The notes beneath the pieces were generated by a model, which worked only from the letters and a program-made list of their open reading frames with translations, did no database searches and had not been told where the DNA came from. This document shows, piece by piece, positions 21,469 to 50,293 of a stretch of DNA of 64,000 nt. The stretch comes from Tessaracoccus rhinocerotis (lineage in GTDB: Bacteria; Actinomycetota; Actinomycetes; Propionibacteriales; Propionibacteriaceae), in assembly GCF_007197885.1 (NCBI RefSeq), contig NZ_VKKG01000007.1:1-64000 (forward strand), written 5' to 3'. Every line of letters begins with the position of its first letter. Positions within the stretch are counted from its first letter, which is position 1. The position numbers were made by a program, and so were the translations under genes.

Positions 21469-21480
21469 GTAATCGTTTGC
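21469..21480. promoter_or_regulatory. LacI-type operator candidate
   Basis: GTAATCGTTTGC matches 11 of 12 bases of the reverse complement of the GTAAACGATTAC site at 41879. It lies in the divergent region 21414-21576 between the lacI-type gene and the VOC gene, where a LacI protein would be expected to bind. Confidence 0.45.
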
Positions 21481-32693: not shown

Positions 32694-32821
32694 CTCCGCC
32701 TGCCTTCCGAGGAGTGCGGGAATCGTTCTGTTCGTGCTGCCCAGTTTCTATCACACTGCGGTGGGGGTTGTTAGCGTGTGGTCAGCGCGGAAACCGTCGC
32801 GCCGGGTCGAAGGGGACATGG

Positions 32822-35047
32822 ATGAGTCGAATGGGCAGGGACGTCGAGTTGGTCAACGACGATTGGGCGTTCGCCGCCGCGGAGCTGCCAGTGAACTCGT
32901 CCTGGGACGACGTCCGGGAGGCCGGCGCAACGATCAGCCTGCCGCACACCTGGAACGCGATCGACGGGCAGGACGGCGGCAACGACTACCGCCGCGGCCG
33001 CAGCACCTACGCCCGGAGATTGCCTGCGCAACCCGCCGACGGCGAGACCTGGCTGGAGTTCCGCGGCGTCAACTCCGCGGCCGAGGTCCACGTCAACGGC
33101 GTCCACGTCGGAAGCCACCAGGGCGGGTACTCCACGTTCAGGGTTGACATCACCGACGCACTCGGCCCCGAGAACGTCGTGCTGGTAATCGTCGACAACT
33201 CGCGCAACACCTTCGCCTATCCCCAGCGCGCGGACTTCACCTTCTACGGCGGCATCTACCGCGACGTCCACCTGATCCGCGTGGCCCGCACCCACTTCGC
33301 CCTGGACCACGACGGCGGCCCCGGTGTCACTGCCACCCCCGAGCTCCTCGGGACGGACGCGCACGTCCGGTTGCAGGCAGACCTGACCGGCGGTGACGAG
33401 GTGCGCTTCAGCATCGACGGCGTCGCCTCCCGGACCGTGCCCGTGCGGGACGCCGTCGCGGAGGCCTCCATCACCATCCCCGACGTCCGCCGCTGGCACG
33501 GCCTGCGGGACCCCCACCTCTACGAACTCGCCGCAGAACTGCTCCTCGACGGCGACGTCGTCGACCGGGTCGAGCTGCGGTTCGGCTGCCGGGAGTTCGA
33601 GGTGGACCCGGCGCGCGGCTTCATCCTCAACGGCGAGGAGTACCCCCTGCGCGGCGTCTCGCGGCACCAGGACTGGGAGGGCGTCGGGAACGCCATCACA
33701 CCGGAGATGATGGAAACCGACATGGCGCTCCTGAGGGAATTGGGCGCCACCACGGTCAGGCTGGCGCACTACCAGCACGACCAGCACTTCTACGATCTCT
33801 GCGACGAGGCCGGCATCGTCGTGTGGGCCGAGATCCCGCAGATCACCGAGTTCCTGCCGGAAGGCAAGGCCGACGCGACCAGCCAACTCACCGAGCTGAT
33901 CGTGCAGAACCGCCACCACGCCAGCATCGTGTGCTGGGGGCTGTCCAACGAGATCACAGTCACGGGCAACGGCCCGGAGGTGCTCGCGGCCCACCGGGAG
34001 CTGGACGAGCTGGCGCACCGCCTGGACCCGACGCGCCTGACCACGATGGCTCACCTGTTCCTGCTCGAGACCGACGATCCACTGGTGGGCGTGCCAGACG
34101 TGATGTCCTACAACCTCTACTTCGGCTGGTACGTCGGCGAGGTGGCCGACAACGACACCTGGCTCGACGACTTCCACGCCGCCCACCCGGGCACCGCCAT
34201 CGGCCTGGCCGAGTACGGGGCCGACGCCAACCTGCGGCTCCAGGCGGCCGAACCCGTGCGCGGCGACTACTCCGAGCAGTACCAGGCCGGCTACCACGAG
34301 CACATGCTCGAGATGATCGAGGCCCGCCCCTGGCTGTGGGCCACGCACGTGTGGAACCTCGCCGACTTCGGCTCCGACGGCCGCGACGAGGGGGGAGTGG
34401 CGGGCCGCAACCTGAAGGGCCTGGTCAGCTTCGACCGCACCCAGCGCAAGGACGCCTTCCACCTCTACAAGGCCGCCTGGAGCAACGAGCCCTTCGTGCA
34501 CGTCTGCGGACGGCGCCGCGTGGATCGGGCCGAGGCGGTGACGGAGGTGACGGTCTACTCGAACCAGCCCGAGGTGTCGCTGCTGTGCGACGGCGAGCCC
34601 GTGGCCACGACCGCCGGACGCCTGGTGTTCCACTTCGAGGTCCCCCTCAGCGACGAGCACGAGATCCGCGCCGTCGCGGGGGAGCAGTCCGACTCCATCC
34701 GCGTGAGGCGCGTCGCCGAACCGGACCCGGACCAGAGCCTCCAGGCCGCGCAGGTCGTCAACTGGTTCGACGCCGAAGAGTTGCCCAGCCCCGAGGGCTA
34801 CTTCTCCGTGCGGGACAGGCTCTCCGACATCAAGGCCTCGGAGCAGGGCGCGGCCATAATCGACCGGCTGATGCGGGCCGCGGCCGCCAGCCGAGGCGAC
34901 GTCGCCCAGAACGTCGAGATCCCGGCGGCGATGCAGGCCATCGTCGACCGCATGACCGTCGAGACGTTGCTGCGCCAGGCCGGGGCCGCGCTCCCGGCCG
35001 AGCAGATCGCGCAACTCAACGCCAGCCTCAACCAGATCGCCAAGTAG
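32822..35047 (+). CDS. GH2 glycoside hydrolase (beta-galactosidase/glucuronidase type)
   Basis: A 741-residue enzyme with no signal peptide, so cytoplasmic. Sugar-binding domain (about 1-160, ISLPHTWNAIDGQDGGNDYR and TWLEFRGVNSAAEVHVNGVH), immunoglobulin-like domain (about 165-270), then the TIM barrel: FILNGEEYPLRGVSRHQDWE, acid/base Glu377 in CWGLSNEITVTG and nucleophile Glu464 in IGLAEYGADAN. It is shorter than LacZ and closer to compact GH2 enzymes; galactoside or glucuronide specificity cannot be assigned. A C-terminal extension after 620 ends in helices. ATG 32822 follows AAGGGGA. First gene of GH2-GH1-GH78. Confidence 0.87.
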   Translation: MSRMGRDVELVNDDWAFAAAELPVNSSWDDVREAGATISLPHTWNAIDGQDGGNDYRRGRSTYARRLPAQPADGETWLEFRGVNSAAEVHVNGVHVGSHQGGYSTFRVDITDALGPENVVLVIVDNSRNTFAYPQRADFTFYGGIYRDVHLIRVARTHFALDHDGGPGVTATPELLGTDAHVRLQADLTGGDEVRFSIDGVASRTVPVRDAVAEASITIPDVRRWHGLRDPHLYELAAELLLDGDVVDRVELRFGCREFEVDPARGFILNGEEYPLRGVSRHQDWEGVGNAITPEMMETDMALLRELGATTVRLAHYQHDQHFYDLCDEAGIVVWAEIPQITEFLPEGKADATSQLTELIVQNRHHASIVCWGLSNEITVTGNGPEVLAAHRELDELAHRLDPTRLTTMAHLFLLETDDPLVGVPDVMSYNLYFGWYVGEVADNDTWLDDFHAAHPGTAIGLAEYGADANLRLQAAEPVRGDYSEQYQAGYHEHMLEMIEARPWLWATHVWNLADFGSDGRDEGGVAGRNLKGLVSFDRTQRKDAFHLYKAAWSNEPFVHVCGRRRVDRAEAVTEVTVYSNQPEVSLLCDGEPVATTAGRLVFHFEVPLSDEHEIRAVAGEQSDSIRVRRVAEPDPDQSLQAAQVVNWFDAEELPSPEGYFSVRDRLSDIKASEQGAAIIDRLMRAAAASRGDVAQNVEIPAAMQAIVDRMTVETLLRQAGAALPAEQIAQLNASLNQIAK

Positions 35048-35067
35048 CACCGAAAGAAGGACCAACG

Positions 35068-36264
35068 ATGATGCAGTTCCCCGACGGCTTCCTCTGGGGC
35101 GCCGCCACCGCTCCCCACCAGATCGAGGGCAACAACACCAACTCCGACTTCTGGGCAAACGAGGGACGCGTGCCCGGCATGGAGCGCAGCGGCGACGCCT
35201 GTGACTCCTACCACCGCTACCCCGAGGACATCCGGCTGATGGCTGACGCTGGCCTCAACACCTACCGTTTCGGGATCGAGTGGGCACGGGTGGAACCCGC
35301 CGAAGGGATCATCTCGAATGCCTCCCTCGCGCACTACCGCAGGATGATCGACGCCGTGCTCGAGGCCGGCATGAAGCCGTTCGTCACCCTCCACCACTTC
35401 ACCAACCCGCGCTGGTTCGCCGAGGCCGGCGGCTGGCTGGACGACGGCGCCGTCGCCCGCTTCGAGAACTACCTGCGTGCCGTCACCGGCATCCTCGACG
35501 GTGTCGAGTGGGTGGTCACCATGAACGAGCCCAACATGCTCTCGATGATGACCGCGATGGAGCGCGCGATGCGCACCGGCCAGCAGGACGGCCAGTGGCA
35601 CAGCCCCACCACCGACGACGGCCCCCGCCCGGTGCTGCCCGCGCCCGACGAGGAGATCGGCAAGCGGTTCATCGACGTCCACCACGTCGCCCGCGCCATC
35701 GTCCGCGAGAACACGGACGCCAAGGTGGGCTGGAGCGTCGCCAACCGCGCCTTCGTCGCCCGGCCCGGCGGCGAGGACCGGATGGCGCAGCTGCGGTGGA
35801 CCTGGGAGGACCTGTACCTCTCCGGCTCGGAGGGGGACGATTTCGTCGGGGTGCAGTCGTACTCGAGCCAGTGGGTGGATGCCGACGGGATCGAGCCGTA
35901 CCCGCCGCACCCGGACAACACCCTCGTGGGGACCGCATACCGCCCGGACGCGCTCGGGATGGCCGTCCGCCACACGCATGAGGTGACGGGGTTGCCGATC
36001 GTGGTGACCGAGAACGGCATCGCCACCGACGACGACGCCCGCCGCATCGCTTACACCACCGGAGCGCTCGAGGGCCTGGCCGCAGCAGTCGACGCCGGCG
36101 CGGACGTGCTCGGCTACCTGCACTGGAGCCTGCTCGACAACTACGAGTGGGGACACTGGCGCCCGACCTTCGGGCTGGTTGCAGTGGACCGGACCACCTT
36201 CGAGCGCACGCCCAAACCGAGCCTCGCCTGGCTCGGGAACGTCGCCCGCAACAACGGATTGTGA
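35068..36264 (+). CDS. GH1 beta-glucosidase
   Basis: A 398-residue cytoplasmic TIM-barrel hydrolase. Signature FPDGFLWGAATAPHQIEGNN at the N-terminus, NTYRFGIEWARVEPAEGIIS, FVTLHHFTNPRWFAEAGGWL, acid/base Glu154 in VVTMNEPNM, nucleophile Glu315 in IVVTENGIATDDD and the substrate-binding Trp cluster LHWSLLDNYEWGHW. Slightly shorter than typical GH1 enzymes (about 440-480). It probably removes beta-glucosyl residues from aglycones or oligosaccharides. Start at 35068 after GAAAGAAGGACC, 20 bases after the GH2 stop; ATG 35071 is equivalent. Confidence 0.92.
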   Translation: MMQFPDGFLWGAATAPHQIEGNNTNSDFWANEGRVPGMERSGDACDSYHRYPEDIRLMADAGLNTYRFGIEWARVEPAEGIISNASLAHYRRMIDAVLEAGMKPFVTLHHFTNPRWFAEAGGWLDDGAVARFENYLRAVTGILDGVEWVVTMNEPNMLSMMTAMERAMRTGQQDGQWHSPTTDDGPRPVLPAPDEEIGKRFIDVHHVARAIVRENTDAKVGWSVANRAFVARPGGEDRMAQLRWTWEDLYLSGSEGDDFVGVQSYSSQWVDADGIEPYPPHPDNTLVGTAYRPDALGMAVRHTHEVTGLPIVVTENGIATDDDARRIAYTTGALEGLAAAVDAGADVLGYLHWSLLDNYEWGHWRPTFGLVAVDRTTFERTPKPSLAWLGNVARNNGL

Positions 36265-36271
36265 TGCAGCA

Positions 36272-38947
36272 GTGACCCAGCCGATGACCGTCGTCCCCAC
36301 CGCCCCCACCCGCCTGCGGACCGACGGCGGCGGAGACGCGTTCCCCGTAACCGGAGCCGCGCCCAGGTTCTCGTGGTGGCCGCCCGCCGAAGTCGGACGC
36401 GTGCTCGGCGCCGAGCTCGAGGCGCGCGTCGAGGGCCGGGCGCTGCAGCCGGTGGCGGTCGACGCCGGGCAGCAGTTCGTGGCATGGCCCTGGCCGGAGC
36501 TGCGCAGCAGGCAGCGCGTCGAGTGGCGGGTGCGCGTCGCGGGGGAGCGCGGCCGCAGTGAGTGGTCGGCGTGGGCGTCGTTCGAGGTCGGACTGCTGGA
36601 GGGGGACTGGGAGGCCCGCTGGATCTCCCCGCACGAGGCTGAGGACGCCGGGCACGGGAACCGGCCCGCACACCGTCTCTCAGTGACCTTCGACGTGGGT
36701 GACGACGTGGCGCGGGCCAGGCTCTACAGCACGGCGCTGGGGCTCTACGAGGCTTTCGTCAACGGGTCGCGCGCCGGAACCGCCGAACTCCTGCCGGGCA
36801 GCACCTCCTACGCCGAGACCCTGTACGCCCAGGCGTTCGACGTGACCGGAGCGGTCCGGGCCGGCTCGAACCGGCTCGAGCTCCTGCTCAGCGACGGCTG
36901 GTACCGGGGGCAGGTGGGTGCCTTCCGCATCCCGTCCGGCTGGGGCGACACCCTGGCGGCCAGGGTGGAACTCCACCTGGAACTCGCCGACGGATCAAGG
37001 CGCGTGGTGCGCAGCGACGGGAACTGGACGAGCGCACCGTCGCAGATCGTCCGGGCTGACCTGATGGCAGGCCAGAGCACCGACTTCACCGCCGTCCCCG
37101 GCCCCGCGGCACCCGTGGTGGTGGACGCGGTCCGGGGACCGCGGATCGACTGGTCCCCCGCGCCGCCGGTGCGAGTGGTGGAGACGCGTCGACCGGTCTC
37201 GGTCCGACGTGTCTCGGAGACCGTGGTGGTGGCCGACTTCGGGCAGAACGCGTCGGGCTGGGTGCGCCTCAGCGACCTCGGTCCCGCGGGCACCCGGACG
37301 GTGATCGACCACGGGGAGTTCGTCGGCCCCGACGGTGACCTCGACACCCGGCACCTCGACTCGACCCACCGCGAGGGCGGCCGGACGGAGTTCGTGCAAC
37401 GCGACGAGGTGGTCTCCGACGGCGTCGCGACCGTCTTCGAGCCCCGGCACACGGTCCACGGCTTCCAGTACGCGCGCCTGGAGCGCCACGGCGCACCCCT
37501 CGACCCGGCAGCCGTCGAGATGCGGATCGTCCACACCGACCTGCGACCGACCGGCACCTTCGCCTGCAGCGACCCCGACCTCAACCGACTGCACGAGATC
37601 GCCGATTGGAGCTTCCGCGGCAACGCCGTCGACGTGCCCACCGACTGCCCCACCCGTGAGCGGCTCGCCTGGACCGGCGACTACCAGGTGTTCGCCCCCG
37701 TGGCCACGCGCCTGTACGACGTGCTGGGCTTCAGCCGCAAGTGGCTGCGCTCGGTCCGCGACGACCAACTCGACGACGGCCGCATCCCCAACTTCGCGCC
37801 CGACGGGCGGCGCATCAAGCACAACCTGGACGACCAGCTGGCGATGATGACGGGCTCGGCCGGCTGGGGCGACGCGATCGTCGCCGTCCCGTGGGAACTC
37901 CACCGGTCCTACGGGGACACCGAGGTGTTGTCGGAGAACTGGAACGCGATGGTCCGCTGGGTGGAGTGGGCGCTGGGCAACGCCCGCACGGCCCGCCACC
38001 ACTCACGGGTGGAACGATCGCCCGAACCGCTGCCGCACGAGCAGTACCTGTGGGACGGCTCGTTCCACTGGGGCGAGTGGACCGAGCCGCGGGCCAGGGC
38101 CGCCGACGGTTCGCGCATCGACCCCGTCCAGGACAATCCCATGGCCTGGTTCATGGCGGACAAGGGCGAGATCGGCACCGCCTACCTCTACCGATCCACG
38201 CTCACCCTGGCGCGGGTGGCCGGAGTGCTCGGACGCACCGACGACGCGGCGCGCTACGCGCAGGTGGCCGAACACGTCCGCGATGCGTGGCGCACCGAGT
38301 TCCTGAGGGCAGACGGCCGCACCGCGGCCGACACCCAGGCGAACTACGTCCGCGCGTTGGCCTTCGACCTGATCCCCGAGCCGCTGCGAGCGGCCGCGGC
38401 CGATCGCCTGGTGCAACTCATCCGCGAGGCCGACACCCACCTCAGCACCGGATTCCTCGCCACCGGGGAACTGCTCCCCGTGCTCGCCGACACCGGCCAC
38501 GCCGACGTCGCCCACCAACTGCTGTTCCGGCGCACGCCGCCGTCCTGGCTGTACATGGTGGACAAGGGCGCCACCACCATCTGGGAGGACTGGGAGGGCA
38601 TCGACGAGAACGGCGAGGCGCACGAGTCGCTCAACCACTACAGCAAGGGAGCCGTGGTCCGCTTCCTCCACACCCACACCGTGGGACTGCGCCAGGACGC
38701 CGGTTCGGTCGCGTGGCGGGCGTTCACCGTCGCCCCCGTACCGCCGCCGGCCGTCGACTGGGCGGAGGGGACGCACGAGAGCCCGAGCGGCACCATCCGG
38801 GTGCGGTGGGAGATCGTCGACGGCGTGCTGGAGTTGTCCGTGACCGTCCCTACCGGCTCGAGCGCCACCCTGCGGCTGCCCGACGGAACCACCGAGGTGG
38901 TTGAAGGACCGGCCCGGGTGGATCGCCGCAGCGCGATCTCGGCCTGA
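36272..38947 (+). CDS. GH78 alpha-L-rhamnosidase
   Basis: About 891 residues, no signal peptide. An N-terminal fibronectin-like domain (PRFSWWPPAEVGRVLGAELE) is followed by Bac_rhamnosid_N (RLYSTALGLYEAFVNGSRAG, SDGWYRGQVGAFRIPSGW), a concanavalin-like domain (VVVADFGQNASGWVRL) and the six-hairpin catalytic domain. Asp458, Glu463 and Asp470 in DCPTRERLAWTGD align with the Asp-Glu-Asp triad of GH78, and Glu772 in TTIWEDWEGID with the distal catalytic Glu. It releases terminal alpha-L-rhamnose. GTG 36272 lies 7 bases after the GH1 stop; ATG 36284 is the alternative. It ends 4 bases from the convergent YbaK-like gene. Confidence 0.92.
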   Translation: MTQPMTVVPTAPTRLRTDGGGDAFPVTGAAPRFSWWPPAEVGRVLGAELEARVEGRALQPVAVDAGQQFVAWPWPELRSRQRVEWRVRVAGERGRSEWSAWASFEVGLLEGDWEARWISPHEAEDAGHGNRPAHRLSVTFDVGDDVARARLYSTALGLYEAFVNGSRAGTAELLPGSTSYAETLYAQAFDVTGAVRAGSNRLELLLSDGWYRGQVGAFRIPSGWGDTLAARVELHLELADGSRRVVRSDGNWTSAPSQIVRADLMAGQSTDFTAVPGPAAPVVVDAVRGPRIDWSPAPPVRVVETRRPVSVRRVSETVVVADFGQNASGWVRLSDLGPAGTRTVIDHGEFVGPDGDLDTRHLDSTHREGGRTEFVQRDEVVSDGVATVFEPRHTVHGFQYARLERHGAPLDPAAVEMRIVHTDLRPTGTFACSDPDLNRLHEIADWSFRGNAVDVPTDCPTRERLAWTGDYQVFAPVATRLYDVLGFSRKWLRSVRDDQLDDGRIPNFAPDGRRIKHNLDDQLAMMTGSAGWGDAIVAVPWELHRSYGDTEVLSENWNAMVRWVEWALGNARTARHHSRVERSPEPLPHEQYLWDGSFHWGEWTEPRARAADGSRIDPVQDNPMAWFMADKGEIGTAYLYRSTLTLARVAGVLGRTDDAARYAQVAEHVRDAWRTEFLRADGRTAADTQANYVRALAFDLIPEPLRAAAADRLVQLIREADTHLSTGFLATGELLPVLADTGHADVAHQLLFRRTPPSWLYMVDKGATTIWEDWEGIDENGEAHESLNHYSKGAVVRFLHTHTVGLRQDAGSVAWRAFTVAPVPPPAVDWAEGTHESPSGTIRVRWEIVDGVLELSVTVPTGSSATLRLPDGTTEVVEGPARVDRRSAISA

Positions 38948-39664: not shown

Positions 39665-41710
39665 TCAGCTGAAGCGGACGATGTTGTTGAAGACCATCTT
39701 GGTCACCACGCGGTAGGCGTTGCCGACCCGCTCGATGACCTGTGCCTCGGCGTAGCTGCGGCAACCGTTGCCACCGGTGGAGGGCGTGTTGCACTCGGTG
39801 CGCCAGCGGCGGCCGTCGGTACCGGTGAACTCACCCGGCGTCGCCAGCGGGTTGCCCACCCACAGTGACTTCGGCGAGGGCGTGTAGGTGAGGTTGTTGA
39901 ACGCCCAGCCGTTGACCTGGTGGAAGTGGCCGTCGAGCTGCTTGATCTGGGTGGCCCAGATGTAGGTCCAGCAGCGATCGGTCTGCGAGTACGGCTCGCA
40001 CACCGTCATCCAACGGCGCCCGTTCACGTCGTGGAACCCCGGCGTGATGTAGAGGTCCTCAGTCGGCGGGTCCGTCGGTTCCTGCGTCGGTTCCTCGGTG
40101 GGTTCCTGCGTCGGCTCCTCGGTCGGCTCCTCCGTCGGCTCCTCGGTGGGAGGCGTGCCGGGATCGCTGATGGCCACCAGGTTGATGTTGTCGCCCTGCA
40201 CCCAGCGGTCGGCGGTCATCGTCGAGCCGGCGAACACGTCCACGAGGGTGTGTGCCCCGCTGTTGAACTCGACGGTGAACTTCGTGTACTCGGCGAGGTC
40301 GCCGAAGGTCTCCTGCGCGACGACGACGCCGCCCGGTCCGCTCTGCCGCACGCCGAGGAAGCCCTCGCCGGCGCCGCCGCCGGCCGAGTCGCCAGTGGTG
40401 AACCAGCCGGTCAGCCGGTAGTCGGTGTACGGGGTGAGCGTCACCTGCTGGGTCACCTGCTGCGTGCCCGCGTTCATCCGCACCCAGAACTGCCGGAAGC
40501 CGACCTTCGCCCAGGCGGAGTTGGTGTCGATGCCGCCGGCGCCCTGCAGGGTCCAGCCGCCCTCGACGTTGATCGCGTCGCTCATCTCGAACGAGGCGTC
40601 TCGCAGCAGGTTGGGTCGGATGACCTGGCCCGCGTCGTCGAGGCTTGCGTGCATCAGCGCCACGTTGTAGCCGTTCCAGATGGACAGCGCGAAGTACAGC
40701 TCGTCGGGCTCGGACCACGGGTGGATGTAGCCGCCGTAGAGCCCGGGGTACTCGGCCTGCGTGGCCAGGATCTGCTCATCGCCCCAGGAGGTGGGGGAGT
40801 CGCCGACCCGCAGCACCAGGTCCGCGTTGGTGTTCAGGTAGACCATGTGCCACTGCTCGGTCTCGGGGACGTAGCGCACTGACAGCTCGGCGACGGCGGG
40901 GTCGATGATGGACTGGACGGCCGAGTAGTCGCTGTTCCAGGCGGTGCCGTCCCAGTACTCGTAGGCCTCCTTGTCCAGCATCTGGTCCTCGGCGACGCGC
41001 CCCACCGACGCCGCCCCCAGGCGGCCGTTCGGCGTGCCGAACATGTAGACGTAGCCGTCGGCCCGGGTGTAGGCGAGCATCTGGAACGGGTCGTCGTCAG
41101 CCTCCGTGTTCTCCCACCTCGGGGCACCCTCGATGGACCAGGTCTGGCCACCGTCGTCGGAATAGGCGAGCTGGCTGAAGTTGGTCCACCACTCACCGGG
41201 CGGGCCCCACTCGCGCACGGACATGTAGGCCATGTACTGCCGGCCGTCGACCTCGATGCCGGCGGTCGGGATGGTGGTGTGCTCCTCGCCGGGCACCTTC
41301 TGCGAGCCGATGATCTCGACCGCCTGGCCGGACTCGTCGGTCAGTGCCCAGTCGAAAGCCATGCCGTCGGACAGGTCGGTGTCCGAGGAGCGCAGCAGCA
41401 CGTTGCTGCGCCAGTTCCCGGTGCCGGCGCCGGAGCCGCCCGGCACGGCGAACGTGTCGCCGAAGGCGGTCAGCACGTTGCCGGTGCCGTCGTCCCACAT
41501 GATGCCCAGGTCGGTGGCGCCGATGTCCCAGACCTCGGCGGTGTCGGTGGTGGCCCCCGCGCCGGTGATCTCGTCGATCAGGGTGGCGGGGGAGATCGGC
41601 GGAAGGTCGCCCTCCGCGGCGACGGCGTCACCGAGCGTCGCCCCGGTGGCGGCCAGCGCCCCCGTGGTTAGCGTGACGATAAAACGATTACTTAGTTTTC
41701 TACGCGTCAT
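39665..41710 (-). CDS. secreted GH183 (DUF4185) endo-D-arabinanase, multidomain
   Basis: A 681-residue exported protein. Signal peptide about 1-32 (RFIVTLTTGALAATGATLGD, cleavage near AVAA-E). The DUF4185 beta-propeller catalytic domain (about 35-370) has the paired Asp67 (GATDLG) and Asp85 (TAFGDTFA); GH183 enzymes use such a pair. A jelly-roll CBM-like domain follows (about 375-535), then a Pro-Thr-Glu repeat linker (PTEEPTEEPTEEPTQEPTEE), then a Cys-containing repeat domain (GRRWMTVCEPYSQ and GRRWRTECNTPS). DUF4185 proteins are endo-D-arabinanases of mycobacterial cell-wall arabinan. ATG 41710 is preceded by GGAGGAAACACG. Divergent from the GH172 gene. Confidence 0.88.
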   Translation of the reverse strand: MTRRKLSNRFIVTLTTGALAATGATLGDAVAAEGDLPPISPATLIDEITGAGATTDTAEVWDIGATDLGIMWDDGTGNVLTAFGDTFAVPGGSGAGTGNWRSNVLLRSSDTDLSDGMAFDWALTDESGQAVEIIGSQKVPGEEHTTIPTAGIEVDGRQYMAYMSVREWGPPGEWWTNFSQLAYSDDGGQTWSIEGAPRWENTEADDDPFQMLAYTRADGYVYMFGTPNGRLGAASVGRVAEDQMLDKEAYEYWDGTAWNSDYSAVQSIIDPAVAELSVRYVPETEQWHMVYLNTNADLVLRVGDSPTSWGDEQILATQAEYPGLYGGYIHPWSEPDELYFALSIWNGYNVALMHASLDDAGQVIRPNLLRDASFEMSDAINVEGGWTLQGAGGIDTNSAWAKVGFRQFWVRMNAGTQQVTQQVTLTPYTDYRLTGWFTTGDSAGGGAGEGFLGVRQSGPGGVVVAQETFGDLAEYTKFTVEFNSGAHTLVDVFAGSTMTADRWVQGDNINLVAISDPGTPPTEEPTEEPTEEPTQEPTEEPTQEPTDPPTEDLYITPGFHDVNGRRWMTVCEPYSQTDRCWTYIWATQIKQLDGHFHQVNGWAFNNLTYTPSPKSLWVGNPLATPGEFTGTDGRRWRTECNTPSTGGNGCRSYAEAQVIERVGNAYRVVTKMVFNNIVRFS
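41680..41691. promoter_or_regulatory. LacI-type operator candidate inside the GH183 leader codons
   Basis: TAAAACGATTAC resembles the intergenic site GTAAACGATTAC. It overlaps codons 7-11 of the GH183 gene, where AGT-AAT-CGT-TTT replace the GC-rich codons used elsewhere, so the DNA itself may be under constraint. Confidence 0.4.
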
Positions 41711-41878
41711 CGTGTTTCCTCCGGTAGCTGCGCGTTCGGCCGCCACAACGACGTGGGGCCTGGTGATCCGGACTGTAACCCGGGGCCGCTACGGAAGTAC
41801 AGGGAAAGCCGGGAACGAGAAACAGTTTCTCGATGGCGCCCTCCCGGTTGACAGGCAAACGGTCGAGCCATACGCTGA

Positions 41879-41890
41879 GTAAACGATTAC
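41879..41890. promoter_or_regulatory. LacI-type operator in the GH183/GH172 divergent region
   Basis: GTAAACGATTAC is a near-palindrome centred on CG (GTAA-ACGA-TTAC), the typical form of LacI/GalR-family operators. It lies 56 bases upstream of the GH172 start and 169 bases upstream of the secreted GH183 start, in the only divergent promoter region of the locus. The LacI protein at 50295 is the natural candidate to bind it. Confidence 0.6.
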
Positions 41891-41945
41891 ACGTGATTAC
41901 CCGGTGGCGACGCAGCCTCCGGGTGCTGAAGAAGGGTAGTCATCG

Positions 41946-43025
41946 ATGACTTCATACGGGGACCACGGATCCAGCCTCCGTGACCTGCCACGCCTCAGGA
42001 GCTCCCGCCGACGGCGCGTTTCCTCCTACGACCGCTCCGGCGGCAACGAGGACCGCCTCACCGTCCGCCCCGGCGAGACCGTGGAGCTCGCGAACATCGC
42101 CGGCGCGGGGGACATCAACCACATCTGGATGACGGTTGCCCCGATGGCGCCGCCGGATCCCAACACCCCGGACAAGGCGTTCATGCGCAAGCTCGTGCTG
42201 CGCGTCTACTGGGACGGCAACGAGCACCCCAGCGTGCTGGTGCCGCTCGGGGACTTCTTCGGCGTCGGCCACGCGAAGACCACCAACTTCGCCTCGCTGC
42301 CGCTCCAGATGAGCCCCCAGGACGGCAAGTCGCTGAACTCGTTCTTCCACATGCCCTTCGCCGACGGCGCCCGCTTCGAACTCGTCAACGAGTGCACGGA
42401 CCTGACCGTCTGGTTCTACTACTACATCGACTACGAGGCCTTCGACGAGCTGGAGGACGGCATCGGTCGGTTCCACGCGTCGTGGCACCGCGAGGACCCC
42501 ACCGACGGCATCGAGCAGGGCGAGCTGACCAACGCCCAGTACCTCTTCGAGGGTGACAACACCACCGGCGACGGGAACTACACGATCCTGGAGACCAAGG
42601 GCCGCGGCCACTACGTCGGGTGCACCTTCAACGTCACCAACCTGCGCCACACCGAGGACTGGAACTGGTACGGCGAGGGCGACGACATGATCTTCATCGA
42701 CGGTGAGGAGTGGCCGCCGGACATCCACGGCACCGGCACCGAGGACTACTTCAACACCGCCTGGTGCCCCGCCGAGCCATACCAGAGCATGTACCACGGC
42801 ATCACGATGCCGGGCGGCGACAACTGGTCGGGACAGATCTCGATGTACCGGTTCCACGTGGAGGACCCGATCACCTTCTCCGAGTCCATCCGCGTCACCA
42901 TCGAGCACGGCCACAACAACCAGCGCAGCGACGACATCTCGTCCGTGGCGTACTGGTACCTGGACCGGGTCGACGAGACGCTGACGCTGCCGCCCGTCGA
43001 GGAACGCCTCCCGAGGCTCGGGTGA
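41946..43025 (+). CDS. GH172 (DUF2961) probable exo-alpha-D-arabinofuranosidase
   Basis: A 359-residue protein of the DUF2961 double jelly-roll family: SSYDRSGGNEDRLTVRPGET, IAGAGDINHIWMTV, LVLRVYWDGNEHPSVLVPLG, DFFGVGHAKTTNFASLPLQM and GEEWPPDIHGTGTEDYFNTA (conserved Glu in GTGTEDYF), with WYGEGDDMIFIDGE before it. GH172 members include exo-alpha-D-arabinofuranosidases and alpha-D-fructofuranosidases. No signal peptide, so cytoplasmic, acting on imported oligosaccharides (inference). ATG 41946 follows AAGAAGGG. The next gene, a second GH183, begins one base after its stop. Confidence 0.9.
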   Translation: MTSYGDHGSSLRDLPRLRSSRRRRVSSYDRSGGNEDRLTVRPGETVELANIAGAGDINHIWMTVAPMAPPDPNTPDKAFMRKLVLRVYWDGNEHPSVLVPLGDFFGVGHAKTTNFASLPLQMSPQDGKSLNSFFHMPFADGARFELVNECTDLTVWFYYYIDYEAFDELEDGIGRFHASWHREDPTDGIEQGELTNAQYLFEGDNTTGDGNYTILETKGRGHYVGCTFNVTNLRHTEDWNWYGEGDDMIFIDGEEWPPDIHGTGTEDYFNTAWCPAEPYQSMYHGITMPGGDNWSGQISMYRFHVEDPITFSESIRVTIEHGHNNQRSDDISSVAYWYLDRVDETLTLPPVEERLPRLG

Positions 43026-43026
43026 C

Positions 43027-44157
43027 ATGGTGTCGCGTCGAATGCTCCTCACCGCCGGGGCCGCTGTGCCCCTGCTCGTGGCCTGCGGCGGCGAGAGCCT
43101 CCCCAGGGCCGTGACGCAGGGCGGCGACTTCCGGCTGCAGCGCGTCGACGCCGTCACCCGGATCGCCCAGCTCACCGGCGCCGGTGCCATCAACGACACC
43201 GAGCAGTACCTCCTCGAGGGCACCGACCTGGGCCACATGACCACGGTCGGGGACCGGACCTACTTCACCTTCGGCGACAGCTTCGGCCTCCGCGCACCGG
43301 GGACCGTCGGCGCCGGGGGCGAGGTCTGGAAGTCCAACTGCATCGCCTGGACCACCGACGACGACCCCTCCGACGGCATCACCTTCGACGGCTGGGTGCT
43401 AGACGAGTTCGAGCAGGTCAAGGAGGTCATCCCCGGCGAGCACAAGCCGAACGACCAGGTTGGGGAGGTCACGAAGATCCCCACCCAGATGTGGGCCGTC
43501 GACGACGAGCTGTTCATGGCCTACATGTCCGTCCACCACTGGGGAGACCCCGGCGTGTGGACGGCCGACCACGCAGGACTGGCCCGCTCCGTCGACCAGG
43601 CGCAGAACTGGGAGATCCTCGAGGGCGTCGACTGGGCCGGTGACGGCAACTTCGTCCAGCTGGCGCACGCGCACGTCGTCGAAGACGGCGACACGTACGT
43701 CTACCTGTGGGGGATTCCTGCGGGCAGGTTCGGCGGCGTCAAGCTGATGCGGGTGCCCGCCAGCGCGGACGCCGTGGCCGCCGGCCGGTTCGAGTACTTC
43801 ACGGGACTCGAGGGGGACGAGCCCACCTGGGGGCCCTCCGAGGACGGCGCGGCCACCGTGCTGGACGGCTTCGTCGGGGAACTGTCGGTGCTGTGGTCGG
43901 AGCACCTCGAGCGCTGGCTGCTCACCACGATGGTGGACAACGGCTCTGCAGTGGTCTTCGAGGGGCTCGCGCCCTGGGGGCCGTGGAGCGAACCGCACAC
44001 CATCACCACACAGGCCGAGACCCCGGGTCTCTACGCCCCCTACACAAACCCGCGCTACGTGTCCGCCGAAGGCAGGCGCATCTACTTCACAATGTCCATC
44101 TGGGAGCCCTACCAGGTCTTCTGGTACTCGATGGACCTCGTCGGCACCGACGGCTGA
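43027..44157 (+). CDS. GH183 (DUF4185) lipoprotein, second endo-D-arabinanase
   Basis: A 376-residue protein. It has a double-Arg signal (MVSRRMLLTAGAAVPLLVAC) with lipobox Cys20, so it is anchored on the outer face of the membrane. The DUF4185 propeller carries the Asp pair at Asp67 (EGTDLG) and Asp84 (FTFGDSF), and shares MWAVDDELFMAYMSVHHWGD, ETPGLYAPYTNPRYVS and IYFTMSIWEPYQVFWYSMD with the other GH183 protein. It has no CBM or C-terminal repeats, so it is a single-domain enzyme, perhaps for shorter oligomers. Start ATG 43027, one base after the GH172 stop. Followed by an ABC-transporter binding protein. Confidence 0.88.
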   Translation: MVSRRMLLTAGAAVPLLVACGGESLPRAVTQGGDFRLQRVDAVTRIAQLTGAGAINDTEQYLLEGTDLGHMTTVGDRTYFTFGDSFGLRAPGTVGAGGEVWKSNCIAWTTDDDPSDGITFDGWVLDEFEQVKEVIPGEHKPNDQVGEVTKIPTQMWAVDDELFMAYMSVHHWGDPGVWTADHAGLARSVDQAQNWEILEGVDWAGDGNFVQLAHAHVVEDGDTYVYLWGIPAGRFGGVKLMRVPASADAVAAGRFEYFTGLEGDEPTWGPSEDGAATVLDGFVGELSVLWSEHLERWLLTTMVDNGSAVVFEGLAPWGPWSEPHTITTQAETPGLYAPYTNPRYVSAEGRRIYFTMSIWEPYQVFWYSMDLVGTDG

Positions 44158-44250: not shown

Positions 44251-45642
44251 ATGGGGTTCAACGTTTCGAGGCGTCACTTCCTCGGCGCAGGTACCGGACT
44301 GGCCGCAGCTGCCGTCCTGACCGCCTGCGGATCAGGCACACCGGGCGAGCCGGCACCGGAGGAGACCACCGGTACGGGCGGCGAGACCAGCGGCGGCGAG
44401 AGCGCTGCCGCCGCCGTCACCATCCAGTTCTGGCACCGCACCTTCACCCCGGTGGAGAACGAGTGGTACGCCAACATCGTCAAGCAGTTCAACGAGTCGC
44501 AGTCCGAGGTCAAGGTCGTCGGGACCGAGGTCCCCGCGGACGCCTGGGACCAGAAGATGAAGTCGGCGCAGGCGGCCGGCAAGGCACCCGACGTCTACAC
44601 CCACCCCGGGGCCATCCAGGACGGCGTCAACGCCGGCCAGCTGCGCGAACTCAACGACATCGTCCCGCAGGAGGCACTCGACGAGATCATCGACGCCGCC
44701 CTGCCAGTCTCGGCCGTGGGCGACAAGTACTACGCGTACCCGCTGCTGCTGGAGCCCCAGACGGTCCTGTTCTGGAACAAGACCATGCTCGAGGCTGCCG
44801 GACTCGACCCCGAGGTCGGGCCCGAGACCTGGGACGAACTGCTCGAGATGTGCGCCGCCATCAAGCCCACCCTCGGCGAGGGCCAGTACTGCATCCAGCC
44901 CGCGGCCGACGCGCCCACGTTCGCGTGGTCCACCGTCGGGCAGCAGTACAACTTCGCCGGGCACACCGCCCTCACCGACGACTGGACCGCACCCAACGTC
45001 GAGAACCCGGAGTACGCCGCCCTGATCGAGGGCTACAAGGCGCTGTGGGACAACGACTACATGCCGAAGCAGGCGCTCGCGGCCTACGTCGCGGGCAACG
45101 ACTACGGCGAGGAGAAGGTGGCCTTCAAGGTCTCCGGCTCCTGGATGATGTCCGAGATCGGCTCCGACTTCCCGGACCTGCTGGGCCGCACCGGCGTCGG
45201 CAGGTTCCCGACGGCAGCGGGCTCGGACCGCACCACCACCACGCTCGGCAACTTCAAGTGGGTCGTCGACGCCAAGACCGCCAACGCCGAGGCCGCGGGC
45301 AAGTTCCTGGCCTGGTCCATCGCGGGCGACCCCGCCAACCTGGTGCCGTTCTTCGTCAACACGCAGTTCACGAAGGTCTCGGTCCGCCAGTCCGTGCAGG
45401 ACGCCGTCGCCGACGACGCCGCCGCGGCCGACGCGCCGTGGTCCGACATCGTCACCAACGAGATCGCGCCCGACGCGATCTCCGAGCCGATGTACCCGTG
45501 GGACGTCTCGCTCGCAGTGGGCACCGCCATGGAGGCCGGCATGAAGGGCGCCCAGCCCATCGACGTCGCCCTCAAGACGGCCGCCGACACGATCGCCCAG
45601 GTGATCGAGCGCGACGGACTCGCGGAGAAGGCGCCGAACTGA
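44251..45642 (+). CDS. CUT1 sugar ABC transporter substrate-binding lipoprotein
   Basis: A 463-residue extracytoplasmic solute-binding protein. Twin-Arg-like leader FNVSRRHFLGAGTGLAAAAV and lipobox LTAC with Cys26, then a Gly/Thr/Glu-rich linker. The type-2 fold begins VTIQFWHRTFTPVENEWYAN, with TVLFWNKTMLEAAGLDPEVG and PETWDELLEMCAAIKPTLGE, as in UgpB/MalE-like proteins. Placed between GH183 and two permease genes, it probably binds arabino-oligosaccharides (inference). ATG 44251 has GAAGGAG upstream. A stable hairpin separates it from the permeases. Confidence 0.9.
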   Translation: MGFNVSRRHFLGAGTGLAAAAVLTACGSGTPGEPAPEETTGTGGETSGGESAAAAVTIQFWHRTFTPVENEWYANIVKQFNESQSEVKVVGTEVPADAWDQKMKSAQAAGKAPDVYTHPGAIQDGVNAGQLRELNDIVPQEALDEIIDAALPVSAVGDKYYAYPLLLEPQTVLFWNKTMLEAAGLDPEVGPETWDELLEMCAAIKPTLGEGQYCIQPAADAPTFAWSTVGQQYNFAGHTALTDDWTAPNVENPEYAALIEGYKALWDNDYMPKQALAAYVAGNDYGEEKVAFKVSGSWMMSEIGSDFPDLLGRTGVGRFPTAAGSDRTTTTLGNFKWVVDAKTANAEAAGKFLAWSIAGDPANLVPFFVNTQFTKVSVRQSVQDAVADDAAAADAPWSDIVTNEIAPDAISEPMYPWDVSLAVGTAMEAGMKGAQPIDVALKTAADTIAQVIERDGLAEKAPN

Positions 45643-45729: not shown

Positions 45730-45769
45730 CTGCAGGGCACGGCGGTTGAGACTAGAAGGCGAGGATGAG

Positions 45770-46696
45770 ATGTCGACGACGACAGAGCTGATCTCCAAGG
45801 CGGAGGTCAAACGGCTGAACAAGAGCAAGTACCGCGACACCAGGTTGGCGTTCCTGATGCTGGCGCCGGTGACGATCATGCTGGGGATCTTCGTGATCTA
45901 CCCGGCGTTCCAGGCCGTGTACCTGTCCTTCCAGGACTGGAGCTTCTACAAGCCGCCGGAGTTCGTGGGGTGGCGCAACTTCACGAACGTCCTCAGCGAC
46001 CCGCTGTTCTTCGCCGCCATCCGGCGCGGCTTCGTGTTCGTGCTGATGACGGTGCCAATCATGCTGGTGCTGGCGTTCCTGTTCGCCAGCCTGGTGGTCT
46101 CCGTCGGCAAGAAGTTCGCCACGACCCTGAAGGTCAGCATCTACATCCCGACGATCATCTCCGGCGTCATCGCCTCGATCATCTTCGTGCTGATCTACGA
46201 CTACTCGGGTGGACTCCTGAACGCGACGCTGGCCAACTTCGACGTGGCTCCGATCGCCTGGATCGGCGACCCGAAGTGGGCGCTGTTCGCGATCGCGATC
46301 CCCGCCATCTGGCTGGGCATGGGGTTGACGTCGCTGATCATGGTGGCCGCGATGGTGGACATCCCCGAGGAGTTCTACGAGGCCGCCGCGATGGAGGGCG
46401 CCAACTGGTGGCAGAAGACGCTCTACATCACCATCCCGCAGATGAAGAACGTCATCCTCTACCTGCTGATCACGGGCTTCGTCGCCTCCATCCAGCAGTT
46501 CGAACTGCCCCTGGTCATGACCGGCGGCGGCCCGCTGGACTCGACGAACCTGCCCAACCTGTTCATCTTCAACCACTTCCGCAACGACATCACCGTCGGC
46601 TACTCGATCGCGGCGGCGCTGCTGCTGTTCGTGGTGCTGGGCACGGTGTCCGCGCTCATCTTCAAGGTACTGAACTCCGAAAAGTTGGTGGACTGA
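45770..46696 (+). CDS. CUT1 sugar ABC transporter permease (MalF/UgpA-like)
   Basis: A 308-residue permease with six membrane segments. It starts STTTELISKAEVKRLNKSKY before the first span LAFLMLAPVTIMLGIFVIYP. The cytoplasmic EAA loop is EEFYEAAAMEGANWWQKTLY (EAAxxxGA), which contacts the ATPase. It is one half of the channel with the next gene. ATG 45770 is chosen over an upstream in-frame start at 45746 because GAGG lies 6 bases before it and the family N-terminus starts there. One base separates it from the next permease. Confidence 0.9.
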   Translation: MSTTTELISKAEVKRLNKSKYRDTRLAFLMLAPVTIMLGIFVIYPAFQAVYLSFQDWSFYKPPEFVGWRNFTNVLSDPLFFAAIRRGFVFVLMTVPIMLVLAFLFASLVVSVGKKFATTLKVSIYIPTIISGVIASIIFVLIYDYSGGLLNATLANFDVAPIAWIGDPKWALFAIAIPAIWLGMGLTSLIMVAAMVDIPEEFYEAAAMEGANWWQKTLYITIPQMKNVILYLLITGFVASIQQFELPLVMTGGGPLDSTNLPNLFIFNHFRNDITVGYSIAAALLLFVVLGTVSALIFKVLNSEKLVD

Positions 46697-46697
46697 C

Positions 46698-47618
46698 ATG
46701 ACTGTGACATCCACGACCTCCGCACCCGTCTCTCGAGGCATCGTCGCGGCCGCCGGCACCGAGGACCAGCCGCTGAAGCACCGTCGCAAGATCCGCTCCA
46801 CCGGCTGGTGGGTCGGGGCGGTGCTGAAGGCGATCGTCGGCCTGCTGTTCCTGCTGGCGGCCCTGTTCCCGCTGGCCTGGATGGTGATCGCCGGGTTCAA
46901 GGCCAAGACCGAGGTCATCTCCACCCCGTTCCAGTTCTTCCCCGAGGTCTGGCTGGTGGAGAACTACATCCAGATCGCCTCCGACCCGACCTTCCTGCGA
47001 ACCATGGGCTGGACCTTCATGGGCGCCATCCTGTTCACGCTGCTGCACCTGTTCCTGAACTCGTTCGCCGCCTACGCCTTCGCCCGGCTGGACTTCCGGT
47101 TCAAGAAGACGATGTGGGTGATCATCATCACCACGATGTTCATCCCGGGCATGACCATCCTGCTCACGAGCTTCATCGTCGTGACCAACCTGTTCATGCT
47201 GGACACCCTCGCCGTGCTGGTGCTGCCCGGCGCCGCCAGCGCGGCCAGCGTGTTCTTCATCCGGCAGTTCTACCTGAACATCCCCGCCAGCCTGGAGGAG
47301 GCGGCGATGATCGACGGCGCGGGCAAGTTCCAGATCTACCTGCGCCTGTTCCTGCCCCTGTCCAAGCCGCCCTTCGTGGTGATGGGCATCACGGCGTTCC
47401 TCGCCTACTGGAACTCCTACGTCTGGCCGATCATGACCATCACCACTCCCGAGAAGTTCGTGGTGCAGCAGTACCTGACCACGTTCCGCTCCGAGCGCTC
47501 CACCGAGCTGGGCATGCTGATGGCCGGCTCCACCCTGGCCGCGGCGCCCGTGGTGATCCTGTTCCTGATCTTCCAGCGCCAGATCATCGGCAACATCAAG
47601 ATGGCGGGGCTCAAGTGA
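46698..47618 (+). CDS. CUT1 sugar ABC transporter permease (MalG/UgpE-like)
   Basis: A 306-residue permease with six membrane segments. After a cytoplasmic arm come AIVGLLFLLAALFPLAWMVI, the span IIITTMFIPGMTILLTSFIV and the EAA loop PASLEEAAMIDGAGKFQIYL (EEAAxxDGA). The C-terminal LGMLMAGSTLAAAPVVILFL and FQRQIIGNIKMAGLK are typical of MalG-type proteins. Its stop overlaps the GTG of the GH116 gene by four bases. No ATPase gene accompanies the transporter here, so a shared MsmK/MalK-type ATPase from elsewhere is expected. Confidence 0.92.
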   Translation: MTVTSTTSAPVSRGIVAAAGTEDQPLKHRRKIRSTGWWVGAVLKAIVGLLFLLAALFPLAWMVIAGFKAKTEVISTPFQFFPEVWLVENYIQIASDPTFLRTMGWTFMGAILFTLLHLFLNSFAAYAFARLDFRFKKTMWVIIITTMFIPGMTILLTSFIVVTNLFMLDTLAVLVLPGAASAASVFFIRQFYLNIPASLEEAAMIDGAGKFQIYLRLFLPLSKPPFVVMGITAFLAYWNSYVWPIMTITTPEKFVVQQYLTTFRSERSTELGMLMAGSTLAAAPVVILFLIFQRQIIGNIKMAGLK

Positions 47619-50293
47619 CCTGGAACCCGCAGGAGCACCCGGCCGTCGCGATGCCGATCGGCGGCATCGGGACGGGCTCCATGGCGATCGGCTCCGACGG
47701 CGGGTGGCGGCAGGTCCAGCTCGCCGGGGTGGGCAACCACCGCGGCGACCTGCCGGGCACGTTCATGGCGCTGCGCACCTCCCAGCACGAGCCGATCCAC
47801 GACCAGACGGTGGTGCTGCAGGCGGCGCGCACCGATGCCGGGTCGCAGGGCCGCCCTGCAACCCCGATGTTCAACGACGACCTGGTGCCCGCCTGGCAGC
47901 GGGACCTGGTCGCCGAGTTCGGCGGCACCGCCACCACCATGTCCGGCACCTACCCGGTTGCCTCCGTGGTGCACGACACCGGCGGGCCCGTCAGCGTCGA
48001 GATGCGCGCCACCTCGCCGATGGTCCCCACCGACGCCGACGCCTCCGGCTACCCGGCCGTGATGCTCGAGGTCACCCTCACCAACCACACCGACACCACC
48101 ACCCAGGCCTGGCTGGCCCACAGCGTGCACAACGCCGTGGGACTCGACCCCCACCTGAGCCCCGAAGGCGTCCGCGCCGCCGGCTACGGCGGCAACGTCA
48201 ACACGATGCGCCGGCGAGGTCGCTTGGTCGTGGGGGGTGCCGGGAATCCCGCTGATAACGCTACTCGGAACTCAAATGAAACGGTTCAAATGGGTTTCGG
48301 TACGGTTCCGGGTCGAACGAGCAGCGGGGAGCAACGGGTGGACCTGGTCATGGACAACCCGTCGGTGGCTCCCGACTCGCCGTGGGCCGGGCAGATGGTG
48401 CTCGGCTGCGTGGCGGACGACGTGGTGGCGCTGCCCTCCTACTCGAACCCGGCGGAGCTGTTTGACTTTCTCCGCCTGCTCGCCCCGTGGGGCGACCACT
48501 CCCGGCGCGACGCCGCCCCAGGAGTGCAGGCTCCGCAGAACTCAGCTCCGACGCCGAGGTTCGGGCCCTCGCCGCAGGGCCAGACCTGGCTCGGCGCGCT
48601 GGTGGCCCACGCGGAACTGCAGCCGCGGGCCTCGCGCACGGTGCGCTTCGTGCTGGCCTGGCACTTCCCCAACCGCATGGTGGACTTCGTCCAGTTCGGA
48701 CCCGACCGACCGGAGCTCGGCAACACCAGGTTCTGGCTCGGCAACCACTACGCCTCGCGCTGGGCCGACGCCGCCGACGTCGCGGACGAGGTGCTCGCCC
48801 GCTGGGAGCCGCTGTGGCACGCCACCACGGCCTGGACCGACGTCGTCGACGGACTCGACCTGCCCCAGCAGTGGCGCACCCACCTGGCCACCCAACCCGT
48901 CCCGCTGCGCACACCCACGAGCTTCCGCACCCACGACGGCGCCTTCTACGGTTTCGAGGGCGTGCTCGGCGCGTCCACGGGGATGTGGTCGGGTGACGTG
49001 GGTGGCTCCTGCCCGCTGAACTGCACCCACGTGTGGAACTACGCGATGGCAGCCTCTGCGCTGTTCCCGTCGCTGGAGCGCTCGATGCGCGAGACCGAGT
49101 TCGACGTCATGCAGGCCCGCTCCGGCGCCCTGCCGCACCGCGTGTTCATGCCGCCCTACCTCGAGCAGTTCGGCGACGGGCCCATCGGCGGCCCGATCGA
49201 GGCCGCCCTCGACGGGATGTGCGGCGCGGTGCTCAAGACCTACCGCGAACTGCTGCGCGGCGCCCTCGACACCGGCTGGGTGTGGGAGCGCTGGCGCAAC
49301 ATCTGCGCGCTGATGGACCACGTCGTCGCCCAGTGGGACCCGAAGGGCACCGGCCTGCTCGCCGGGATCCAGCCCAGCACCCACGACATCGGGCTGCACG
49401 GCACCAACACCTACATGGGCACCTACTGGCTGGCCGCGCTGCGGGCGGCGGAGGAACTGGCGAAGGTGGTGGGCGACGACGAGCGGGCCGCGTCCTGGCG
49501 GGAGCGCTTCGAGACGTCCTCGCGCCGCTACGACGAGGAGTGCTTCGACGGCGAACACTACGTGCAGCGCCCCGACCCGTCGCTCCCCGAGGAGCACCAG
49601 TGGGGGATCGGCTGCCTGTCCGACCAGCTGATCGGCCAGTGGTGGGCCCACACCCTCGGGCTGGGCCACCTGCTGCCGGAGGACCACGTCCGCACGGCGC
49701 TGCGCAGCGTGGTCCGCTGGAACCTGCGGGAGGTCACGGTCCCCGTCGCCGAGTTCGCGCAGCGACCGTACGCCGTCGAGGGCGAGAACGGCCTCGTGAT
49801 GTGCTCCTGGCCCAACGGCGGCCGGCCCGAGGTGCCCACCCTCTACTGCGACGAGGTCTGGACCGGCGTCGAGTACCAGGTGGCGGCGCACTGCATCATG
49901 GAGGGACTGCACGACGAGGCGGTCGCGATCCTCGAGGCGATGTGGGCGCGGCACGACGGGCGCCGTCGCAACCCGTTCAACGAGGCGGAGTGCGGCGACC
50001 ACTACGCTCGTGCCATGGCAGGTTGGAGCGTCCTCGAGGCGGAACTGGGGCTGGCGTGGAACGCGCTCGACGGCACCTTCCGCGTCGGCGGGCCCGGGAC
50101 GGTGCCGCTGTTGACGGGATCCGGCTGGGCCGAGGTCCAGGTCGACGACGACGGCGTGCGCGTCCTGTGCCACCGCGGCCGGATCCCGCTGCGGCGCGTG
50201 GTCGCACCCGGCGGGGACTGGGTCCTCGACGGCAACGAGCTGACACCCCTCGACGGCTGGACGCGGCTGAGTCGATCCGGAGAGGCGGGCTGA
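47615..50293 (+). CDS. GH116 glycoside hydrolase, probable exo-beta-D-arabinofuranosidase
   Basis: About 892 residues, no signal peptide. The N-terminal beta-sandwich opens VAMPIGGIGTGSMAIGSDGG; the (alpha/alpha)6 barrel from about residue 450 has LNCTHVWNYAMAASALFPSL, STHDIGLHGTNTYMGTYWLA, CLSDQLIGQWWAHTLGLGHL and YCDEVWTGVEYQVAAHCIME, which line up with the GBA2/GH116 core. Asp670 in SDQLIGQWW corresponds to the GH116 acid/base. The nucleophile Glu is less clear. GH116 enzymes hydrolyse beta-glucosides, beta-xylosides and, in one D-arabinan degrader, beta-D-arabinofuranosides. GTG 47615 overlaps the permease stop (GTGA). Bases 48224-48345 are less GC-rich than the rest. Confidence 0.85.
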   Translation: MTWNPQEHPAVAMPIGGIGTGSMAIGSDGGWRQVQLAGVGNHRGDLPGTFMALRTSQHEPIHDQTVVLQAARTDAGSQGRPATPMFNDDLVPAWQRDLVAEFGGTATTMSGTYPVASVVHDTGGPVSVEMRATSPMVPTDADASGYPAVMLEVTLTNHTDTTTQAWLAHSVHNAVGLDPHLSPEGVRAAGYGGNVNTMRRRGRLVVGGAGNPADNATRNSNETVQMGFGTVPGRTSSGEQRVDLVMDNPSVAPDSPWAGQMVLGCVADDVVALPSYSNPAELFDFLRLLAPWGDHSRRDAAPGVQAPQNSAPTPRFGPSPQGQTWLGALVAHAELQPRASRTVRFVLAWHFPNRMVDFVQFGPDRPELGNTRFWLGNHYASRWADAADVADEVLARWEPLWHATTAWTDVVDGLDLPQQWRTHLATQPVPLRTPTSFRTHDGAFYGFEGVLGASTGMWSGDVGGSCPLNCTHVWNYAMAASALFPSLERSMRETEFDVMQARSGALPHRVFMPPYLEQFGDGPIGGPIEAALDGMCGAVLKTYRELLRGALDTGWVWERWRNICALMDHVVAQWDPKGTGLLAGIQPSTHDIGLHGTNTYMGTYWLAALRAAEELAKVVGDDERAASWRERFETSSRRYDEECFDGEHYVQRPDPSLPEEHQWGIGCLSDQLIGQWWAHTLGLGHLLPEDHVRTALRSVVRWNLREVTVPVAEFAQRPYAVEGENGLVMCSWPNGGRPEVPTLYCDEVWTGVEYQVAAHCIMEGLHDEAVAILEAMWARHDGRRRNPFNEAECGDHYARAMAGWSVLEAELGLAWNALDGTFRVGGPGTVPLLTGSGWAEVQVDDDGVRVLCHRGRIPLRRVVAPGGDWVLDGNELTPLDGWTRLSRSGEAG

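Follow-up and report, generated by a model that had tools for sequence, protein, structure and literature searches.

A probable D-arabinan utilisation cluster in Tessaracoccus rhinocerotis and an abundant, undescribed C-terminal domain on its secreted GH183 enzyme

A 64,000-nucleotide stretch of Tessaracoccus rhinocerotis DNA (contig NZ_VKKG01000007.1, positions 1 to 64,000; the window) carries genes for two glycoside hydrolase family 183 (GH183) enzymes, here called proteins A and B, next to further glycosidase genes and an ATP-binding cassette (ABC) sugar importer. What does this locus degrade, and what is the C-terminal domain of 130 residues on protein A for? The reading that we consider probable is that Tessaracoccus uses this locus to utilise D-arabinan, with a cluster like that of Microbacterium arabinogalactanolyticum, and that the C-terminal domain of A is a generic module retaining the enzyme on the producer's own envelope. 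The enzyme set, which serves to degrade D-arabinan from the cell walls of mycobacteria, and its pathway are already known; the C-terminal domain is undescribed, abundant and without a family entry.

Two GH183 enzymes in a sugar-uptake cluster

The two GH183 genes and the parts of protein A are as follows.
39665-41710, minus strand: predicted GH183 endo-D-arabinanase A, EndoMA1-type, secreted (PF13810 E 2.4e-107; PDB 8hhv E 2.3e-124)
41615-41710, minus strand: signal peptide of A, residues 1-32, cleavage near AVAA/EG (sequence)
40649-41551, minus strand: five-bladed propeller catalytic domain of A with Asp67, Asp85 and Glu275 (alignment)
40163-40624, minus strand: beta-sandwich of A, residues 363-516, resembling a carbohydrate-binding module (CBM) (8hhv E 3.5e-17; Z 14.8)
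40058-40162, minus strand: PTEEPT linker of A, residues 517-551 (PF04886 E 5e-5; predicted local distance difference test, pLDDT, <50)
39668-40057, minus strand: C-terminal module of A, residues 552-681, most likely surface-retaining (66 genomic copies; AlphaFold2 pLDDT 94.8)
43027-44157, plus strand: predicted GH183 endo-D-arabinanase B, 376 residues, bare propeller, lipobox Cys20 (PF13810 E 8.1e-76; 8hhv E 3.7e-37)

Protein A has 681 residues from the ATG at 41710, and its signal peptide (1 to about 32) is followed by the propeller (about 54-354), the beta-sandwich (363-516), the linker (517-551; its match to the PT-repeat family PF04886 lay just below that family's cut-off) and the C-terminal domain (552-681), which holds Cys571, Cys580, Cys640 and Cys650. 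Both open reading frames matched DUF4185 (PF13810), with scores of 359 bits for A and 256 bits for B against a curated cut-off of 39.5, and they were the only two DUF4185 genes in the genome. Residues 40-513 of A, in an alignment numbered from an upstream GTG (+12 relative to the ATG), matched EndoMA1 (8HHV) through the propeller and the CBM-like domain. The alignment placed the EndoMA1 nucleophile Asp33 and acid/base Asp51 at Asp67/Asp85 in A and Asp67/Asp84 in B, the same Asp pairs to which a preliminary description of this DNA had drawn attention. The third essential residue of EndoMA1, Glu243, corresponded to Glu275 in A, and an equivalent Glu aligned in B too. Both proteins are predicted to be retaining endo-D-arabinanases.

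The N-terminus of protein B, MVSRRMLLTAGAAVPLLVAC, showed an n-region, a hydrophobic core and the lipobox [LVI][ASTVI][GAS]C at Cys20, together with a twin-Arg motif, and B is predicted to be a membrane-anchored lipoprotein. The architectures given for the two enzymes in the preliminary description were therefore confirmed. G026 is the closest relative that shares this cluster; its second GH183 gene (G026:C4:66064-67080, L211) contained an in-frame TGA, and it may be a pseudogene or reflect an assembly error.

The neighbouring genes of the cluster were the following.
41946-43025, plus strand: GH172 (DUF2961), without signal peptide (PF11175 E 8.6e-87; PDB matches)
44251-45642, plus strand: ABC sugar-binding lipoprotein (SBP_bac_1), twin-arginine-type signal (Pfam)
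45746-46696, plus strand: ABC permease 1, open reading frame as listed, start not fixed (PF00528)
46698-47618, plus strand: ABC permease 2 (PF00528)
47615-50293, plus strand: GH116, without signal peptide, closest solved relative the exo-beta-D-arabinofuranosidase ExoMA2 (8ic6 E 5.7e-96, full length)
50295-51314, plus strand: LacI-family regulator (PF00356, PF13377)

The GH172 gene was flanked by both GH183 genes, and the importer genes lay between B and GH116, whose GTG start overlapped the stop of permease 2. GH116 aligned with ExoMA2 (8ic6) over its full length. Inspection of the N-termini of GH172 and GH116 found no signal peptide, as had been described before. Because the matches to solved enzymes are full-length, the homology of A, B, GH172 and GH116 is not a matter of chance. 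The clustering of GH183, GH172 and GH116 with an ABC sugar importer is the gene combination that marks an actinobacterial polysaccharide utilisation locus (PUL) for D-arabinan.

The proposal that endo cleavage outside the cell is followed by import and exo cleavage inside agreed with this arrangement of two predicted extracellular GH183 enzymes, an importer, and GH172 and GH116 without signals, and such a scheme has been published (PMC10509167; also PMC10115798). In M. arabinogalactanolyticum, signal-bearing GH183s, signal-less GH172 and GH116 and an ABC importer were combined in a stepwise model with endo-acting enzymes outside, import, and exo-acting enzymes inside (PMC10509167, Fig. 10). 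The Tessaracoccus cluster resembles that PUL (EndoMA1/EndoMA2, ExoMA1, ExoMA2; PMC10509167) in enzyme set, importer and proposed route. It differs in having two GH183 enzymes, whereas there are four in M. arabinogalactanolyticum, in a GH172 that is nearer alphaFFase1/DgGH172c than ExoMA1, and in the linker and C-terminal module of A, which the EndoMA1 sequence in the PDB lacks. A surface lipoprotein GH183 and a non-secreted GH172, with import between them, have also been proposed for M. amalyticus (PMC10115798), and the present cluster is similar in this pairing. The GH183/GH172 systems of Dysgonomonas gadei and M. amalyticus, however, belong to other phyla and another lifestyle and, in the passages of PMC10115798 consulted, come without an EndoMA1-type CBM or C-terminal module.

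The CBM-like domain of protein A

The CBM-like and C-terminal domains of A had been put forward as new arabinan-binding modules. For the first of them binding is supported and novelty is not, since the beta-sandwich is a homologue of EndoMA1's putative CBM (8HHV residues 331-478, E 3.5e-17). In the EndoMA1 crystal a D-arabino-tetrasaccharide was bound to the CBM-like domain (8IC1); its authors did not rule out a packing artefact, and D-arabinan binding in solution was left unproven for that domain (PMC10509167). Protein A has D395, W409, R411, N413, D501, W503 and Q505 at this tetrasaccharide site.

An alignment of ten homologues from several families, read in EndoMA1 numbering, showed that the contacts D365, R381, D466, W468 and Q470 were invariant (10/10), that position 379 was always Phe or Trp (10/10) and that N383 was kept in nine of the ten. 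The contact positions N361 and Y382 were variable, and neither was kept in protein A. The nine contact positions had a mean conservation of 0.83, compared with 0.63 across the domain (permutation p 0.007, indicative only because the aligned sequences are related). For residues 363-681 AlphaFold gave a weak model (pLDDT 58.6 from three sequences), of which the CBM part alone was used, with sequence homology behind it. In this model the sandwich had the carbohydrate-binding fold that the preliminary description led one to expect, matching 8HHV best (Z 14.8, 2.9 A, 125 residues), then CBM4-type and other modules. The conserved contact residues support D-arabinan binding by the CBM-like domain; domains of this kind were known before, though unproven, and the case for them is now stronger. 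The invariant sugar contacts also provide independent evidence for the disputed binding site of EndoMA1 and name the residues to mutate.

The C-terminal domain and its copies

With residues 552-681 as the query, 66 matches were found in the T. rhinocerotis genome (all such counts are lower bounds, as only 71 candidates per genome were scored). Among 63 further proteins, the module stood at the very C-terminus in 44, right after the signal peptide in 17 and elsewhere in two, one of which looks frameshifted. A linker rich in Pro, Thr, Ser and Glu preceded it in 29 of the 44 C-terminal cases, and 52/63 proteins passed a crude signal-peptide rule. By Pfam, its partners included GH10, GH20, GH35, GH43 (five), GH53, GH59, GH101, GH127, pullulanase, subtilase, 5'-nucleotidase, nuclease and CAP proteins; mostly with an N-terminal module came L,D-transpeptidases, NlpC/P60, RlpA-type DPBB, M14, M15, M23 and glucose/sorbosone dehydrogenases. 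L,D-transpeptidase, NlpC/P60, RlpA-type DPBB, M23 and M15 are enzymes of the producer's own wall. One secreted protein (L197 18392-19912, minus strand, G000 contig C47) carried two copies after its signal peptide, before an L,D-transpeptidase-like region.

The module consisted of two tandem homologous halves of the form GR-x-W-x-T-x-C...C...FNN (hhalign 98.4%, 31% identity), in which G-R-x-W-x-T-x-C ... C ... N-N was invariant, and it was rich in conserved Trp, Arg and Asn. An AlphaFold model from 78 sequences gave a compact all-beta fold with pLDDT 94.8. This confident model of residues 552-681 had no clear PDB match: comparison with solved structures returned nothing convincing (lowest Foldseek E 0.06, highest VIA-align Z 3.5), which is no proof of a new fold. 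SSB/PriB was considered as a fold relative and rejected (Foldseek E 0.06, rmsd near 14 A). No Pfam or NCBIfam family scored above its curated cut-off for the copy in the window, weak scattered Pfam matches occurred for only one or two of the 78 copies, and a literature search found no published description of the module.

The genus sample comprised the T. rhinocerotis genome and 38 others, of which the first module search took in 36, own genome included. The module was present in 14 of these 36, with 11-66 copies in 13 and a single copy in G019, and it was absent from 22. In a class-wide sample, 6/296 genomes, own included, had a match. In four class-wide genomes, which belong to another taxonomic family, distant copies (E between about 1e-12 and 1e-22) sat on three adjacent secreted proteins: an N-acetylmuramoyl-alanine amidase, a SpoIID protein and a third protein without Pfam match. 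A scan of named genomes listed the module in records of Tessaracoccus and other Propionibacteriaceae only, though the record closest to the window may be missing from that scan. T. antarcticus and T. bendigoensis are high-copy species. On a lysS tree of 32 genomes, module presence took 7 changes (range 6-7 over the bootstraps, with a minimum of 3 imposed by the well supported branches), and the sister genomes G020 and G028 had 35 and 0 copies, respectively. As lysS is one gene, this is not a species tree, and gain is not separable from loss on it.

Orthologous proteins exchanged the module for another kind of end. The 5'-nucleotidase orthologue ended with the module in 9/9 listed genomes with at least 29 copies, as well as in G029 and G662, whereas in 13 of the 15 zero-copy genomes, and also in G015, G022, G661 and G663, its end was [LP]PxTG plus one to four residues. 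Such LPxTG-like ends of the 5'-nucleotidase (...PGLP(S/R/K)TGx, stop 1-4 residues later) were seen in 17 genomes (L277-L306) and had neither a membrane helix nor a basic tail. In zero-copy G001, the GH183-CBM orthologue ran into a GH20-like region and ended RPGLPRTGF (L239 282-4760), while those of G025 and G026 retained linker and module. In other families the GH183-CBM orthologues had no module, and most stopped after the CBM.

A terminal LPxTG as the general substitute in zero-copy genomes was rejected, as samples of 400 kb held no more than 0-1 credible cases for G028 and G001, compared with about 3 for high-copy G020; a DNA-pattern search for LPxTG gave counts equal to the control. PF00746 LPxTG proteins were few in all genomes (0-5). 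Sortase dependence of the module was likewise rejected, since sortases occurred in 39/39 genomes, unrelated to copy number.

Three observations together favour surface retention over substrate binding: the module is swapped for a sortase-type motif, some of its partners are own-wall enzymes, and its distant homologues sit on wall enzymes. The module is most likely, judging from these sequences, a generic surface-retention module for secreted proteins. It would probably bind, non-covalently, a polymer in the producer's wall or on its surface. The idea that it is instead a CBM for external polysaccharides, D-arabinan included, bringing enzymes to their substrate, draws on its compact beta fold with conserved Trp, Arg and Asn and on the many partners that are glycoside hydrolases with CBMs. 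We regard it as unlikely, as L,D-transpeptidases, NlpC/P60, RlpA-type proteins, nuclease and 5'-nucleotidase carry the module and share no common external polysaccharide, as it swaps with an LPxTG-type end, and as A is already equipped with a conserved arabinan site in its CBM-like domain. A narrower form of this idea, that the domain is a cell-wall-arabinan module special to the GH183 enzyme, was the second half of the earlier proposal. Fusion of the module to GH183 in three Tessaracoccus genomes fits it, yet at least 65 other copies sit on unrelated proteins and GH183-CBM orthologues of other families lack the module, which makes it very improbable.

A dockerin-like docking domain, or a secretion or sorting tag read by a dedicated scaffold or machine, would account for the usual single copy per protein with tens per genome, and for counts of 0-1 or 11-66 with about 7 state changes on the lysS tree, as in known sorting systems. 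Indeed, like LPxTG/sortase, PEP-CTERM, SLH and CWB2, one module is common to tens of functionally unrelated secreted proteins and is patchy between relatives; unlike them, it is a folded two-repeat, four-Cys beta domain, N- or C-terminal, with no Pfam or NCBIfam match. Its N-terminal position in 17 proteins is unlike a C-terminal sorting tag, sortases are present at any copy number and no scaffold was found, and we consider docking or tagging improbable. A C-terminal sorting tag of the PEP-CTERM/LPxTG type was rejected outright: the module is a 130-residue all-beta domain, follows the signal peptide in 17 proteins and has no transmembrane helix.

Several points weigh against the combined reading of a D-arabinan cluster with an envelope-retention module. 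The GH172 was nearer 4KQ7, 8AH3 (D. gadei), alphaFFase1 and DgGH172c than ExoMA1, so its substrate is less sure and alpha-D-fructofuranoside activity is possible. A non-exhaustive set of neighbouring open reading frames contained no gene for D-arabinose isomerase or kinase. The terminal LPxTG has no membrane helix and so is not proven as an anchor. Enzymes for external polysaccharides are numerous among the module's partners, as would also be expected if the module bound substrate or biofilm, and the analysis identified no gene for a cognate polymer or receptor. What the sequences show is homology, domain architecture, copy number, conserved sites and the swapping of the module; localisation and binding, like the enzymatic activities and the module's ligand, are what we infer.

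A candidate operator and the meaning of the locus

AAACGATTAC occurred exactly in three copies in the window, with 0 expected, and two of them lay at the divergent starts of GH183 A and GH172.
41881-41890, plus strand: exact copy, within GTAAACGATTAC
41682-41691, plus strand: exact copy
21469-21478, minus strand: exact copy
The divergent intergenic region contains GTAAACGATTAC, an inverted repeat of GTAA/TTAC. The LacI-family regulator at 50295 probably controls the D-arabinan cluster, and AAACGATTAC is a candidate for its operator. Beside the cluster, the window also held GH2, GH1-like and alpha-L-rhamnosidase (GH78-type) genes (32714-38947).

In the proposed route, A would cut the D-arabinan of arabinogalactan or lipoarabinomannan outside the cell, with its CBM-like domain holding the substrate and its C-terminal domain keeping it on the producer's own envelope. 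B would act beside it as a membrane-anchored lipoprotein endo-D-arabinanase, the fragments would enter the cell through the ABC importer, and GH172 and GH116 would finish them in the cytoplasm. Of the contrast drawn earlier between free and tethered endo cleavage, the tethering of B remains the prediction, while the freedom of A is weakened: as the module is likely surface-retaining, A is probably surface-held too.

The module tags a large part of the secretome. It is tempting, though tentative, to see here an undescribed Tessaracoccus surface-display system, in which over 60 secreted enzymes are gathered by a single polymer or receptor, whose gain or loss would explain tens of copies versus almost none. 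The close relatives with 0-1 and 11-66 copies offer natural pairs for finding such a receptor, and the module might find use as a display tag in Actinobacteria. The prediction is that most glycosidases of module-bearing species act at the cell surface, so that the producer would keep the sugars released.

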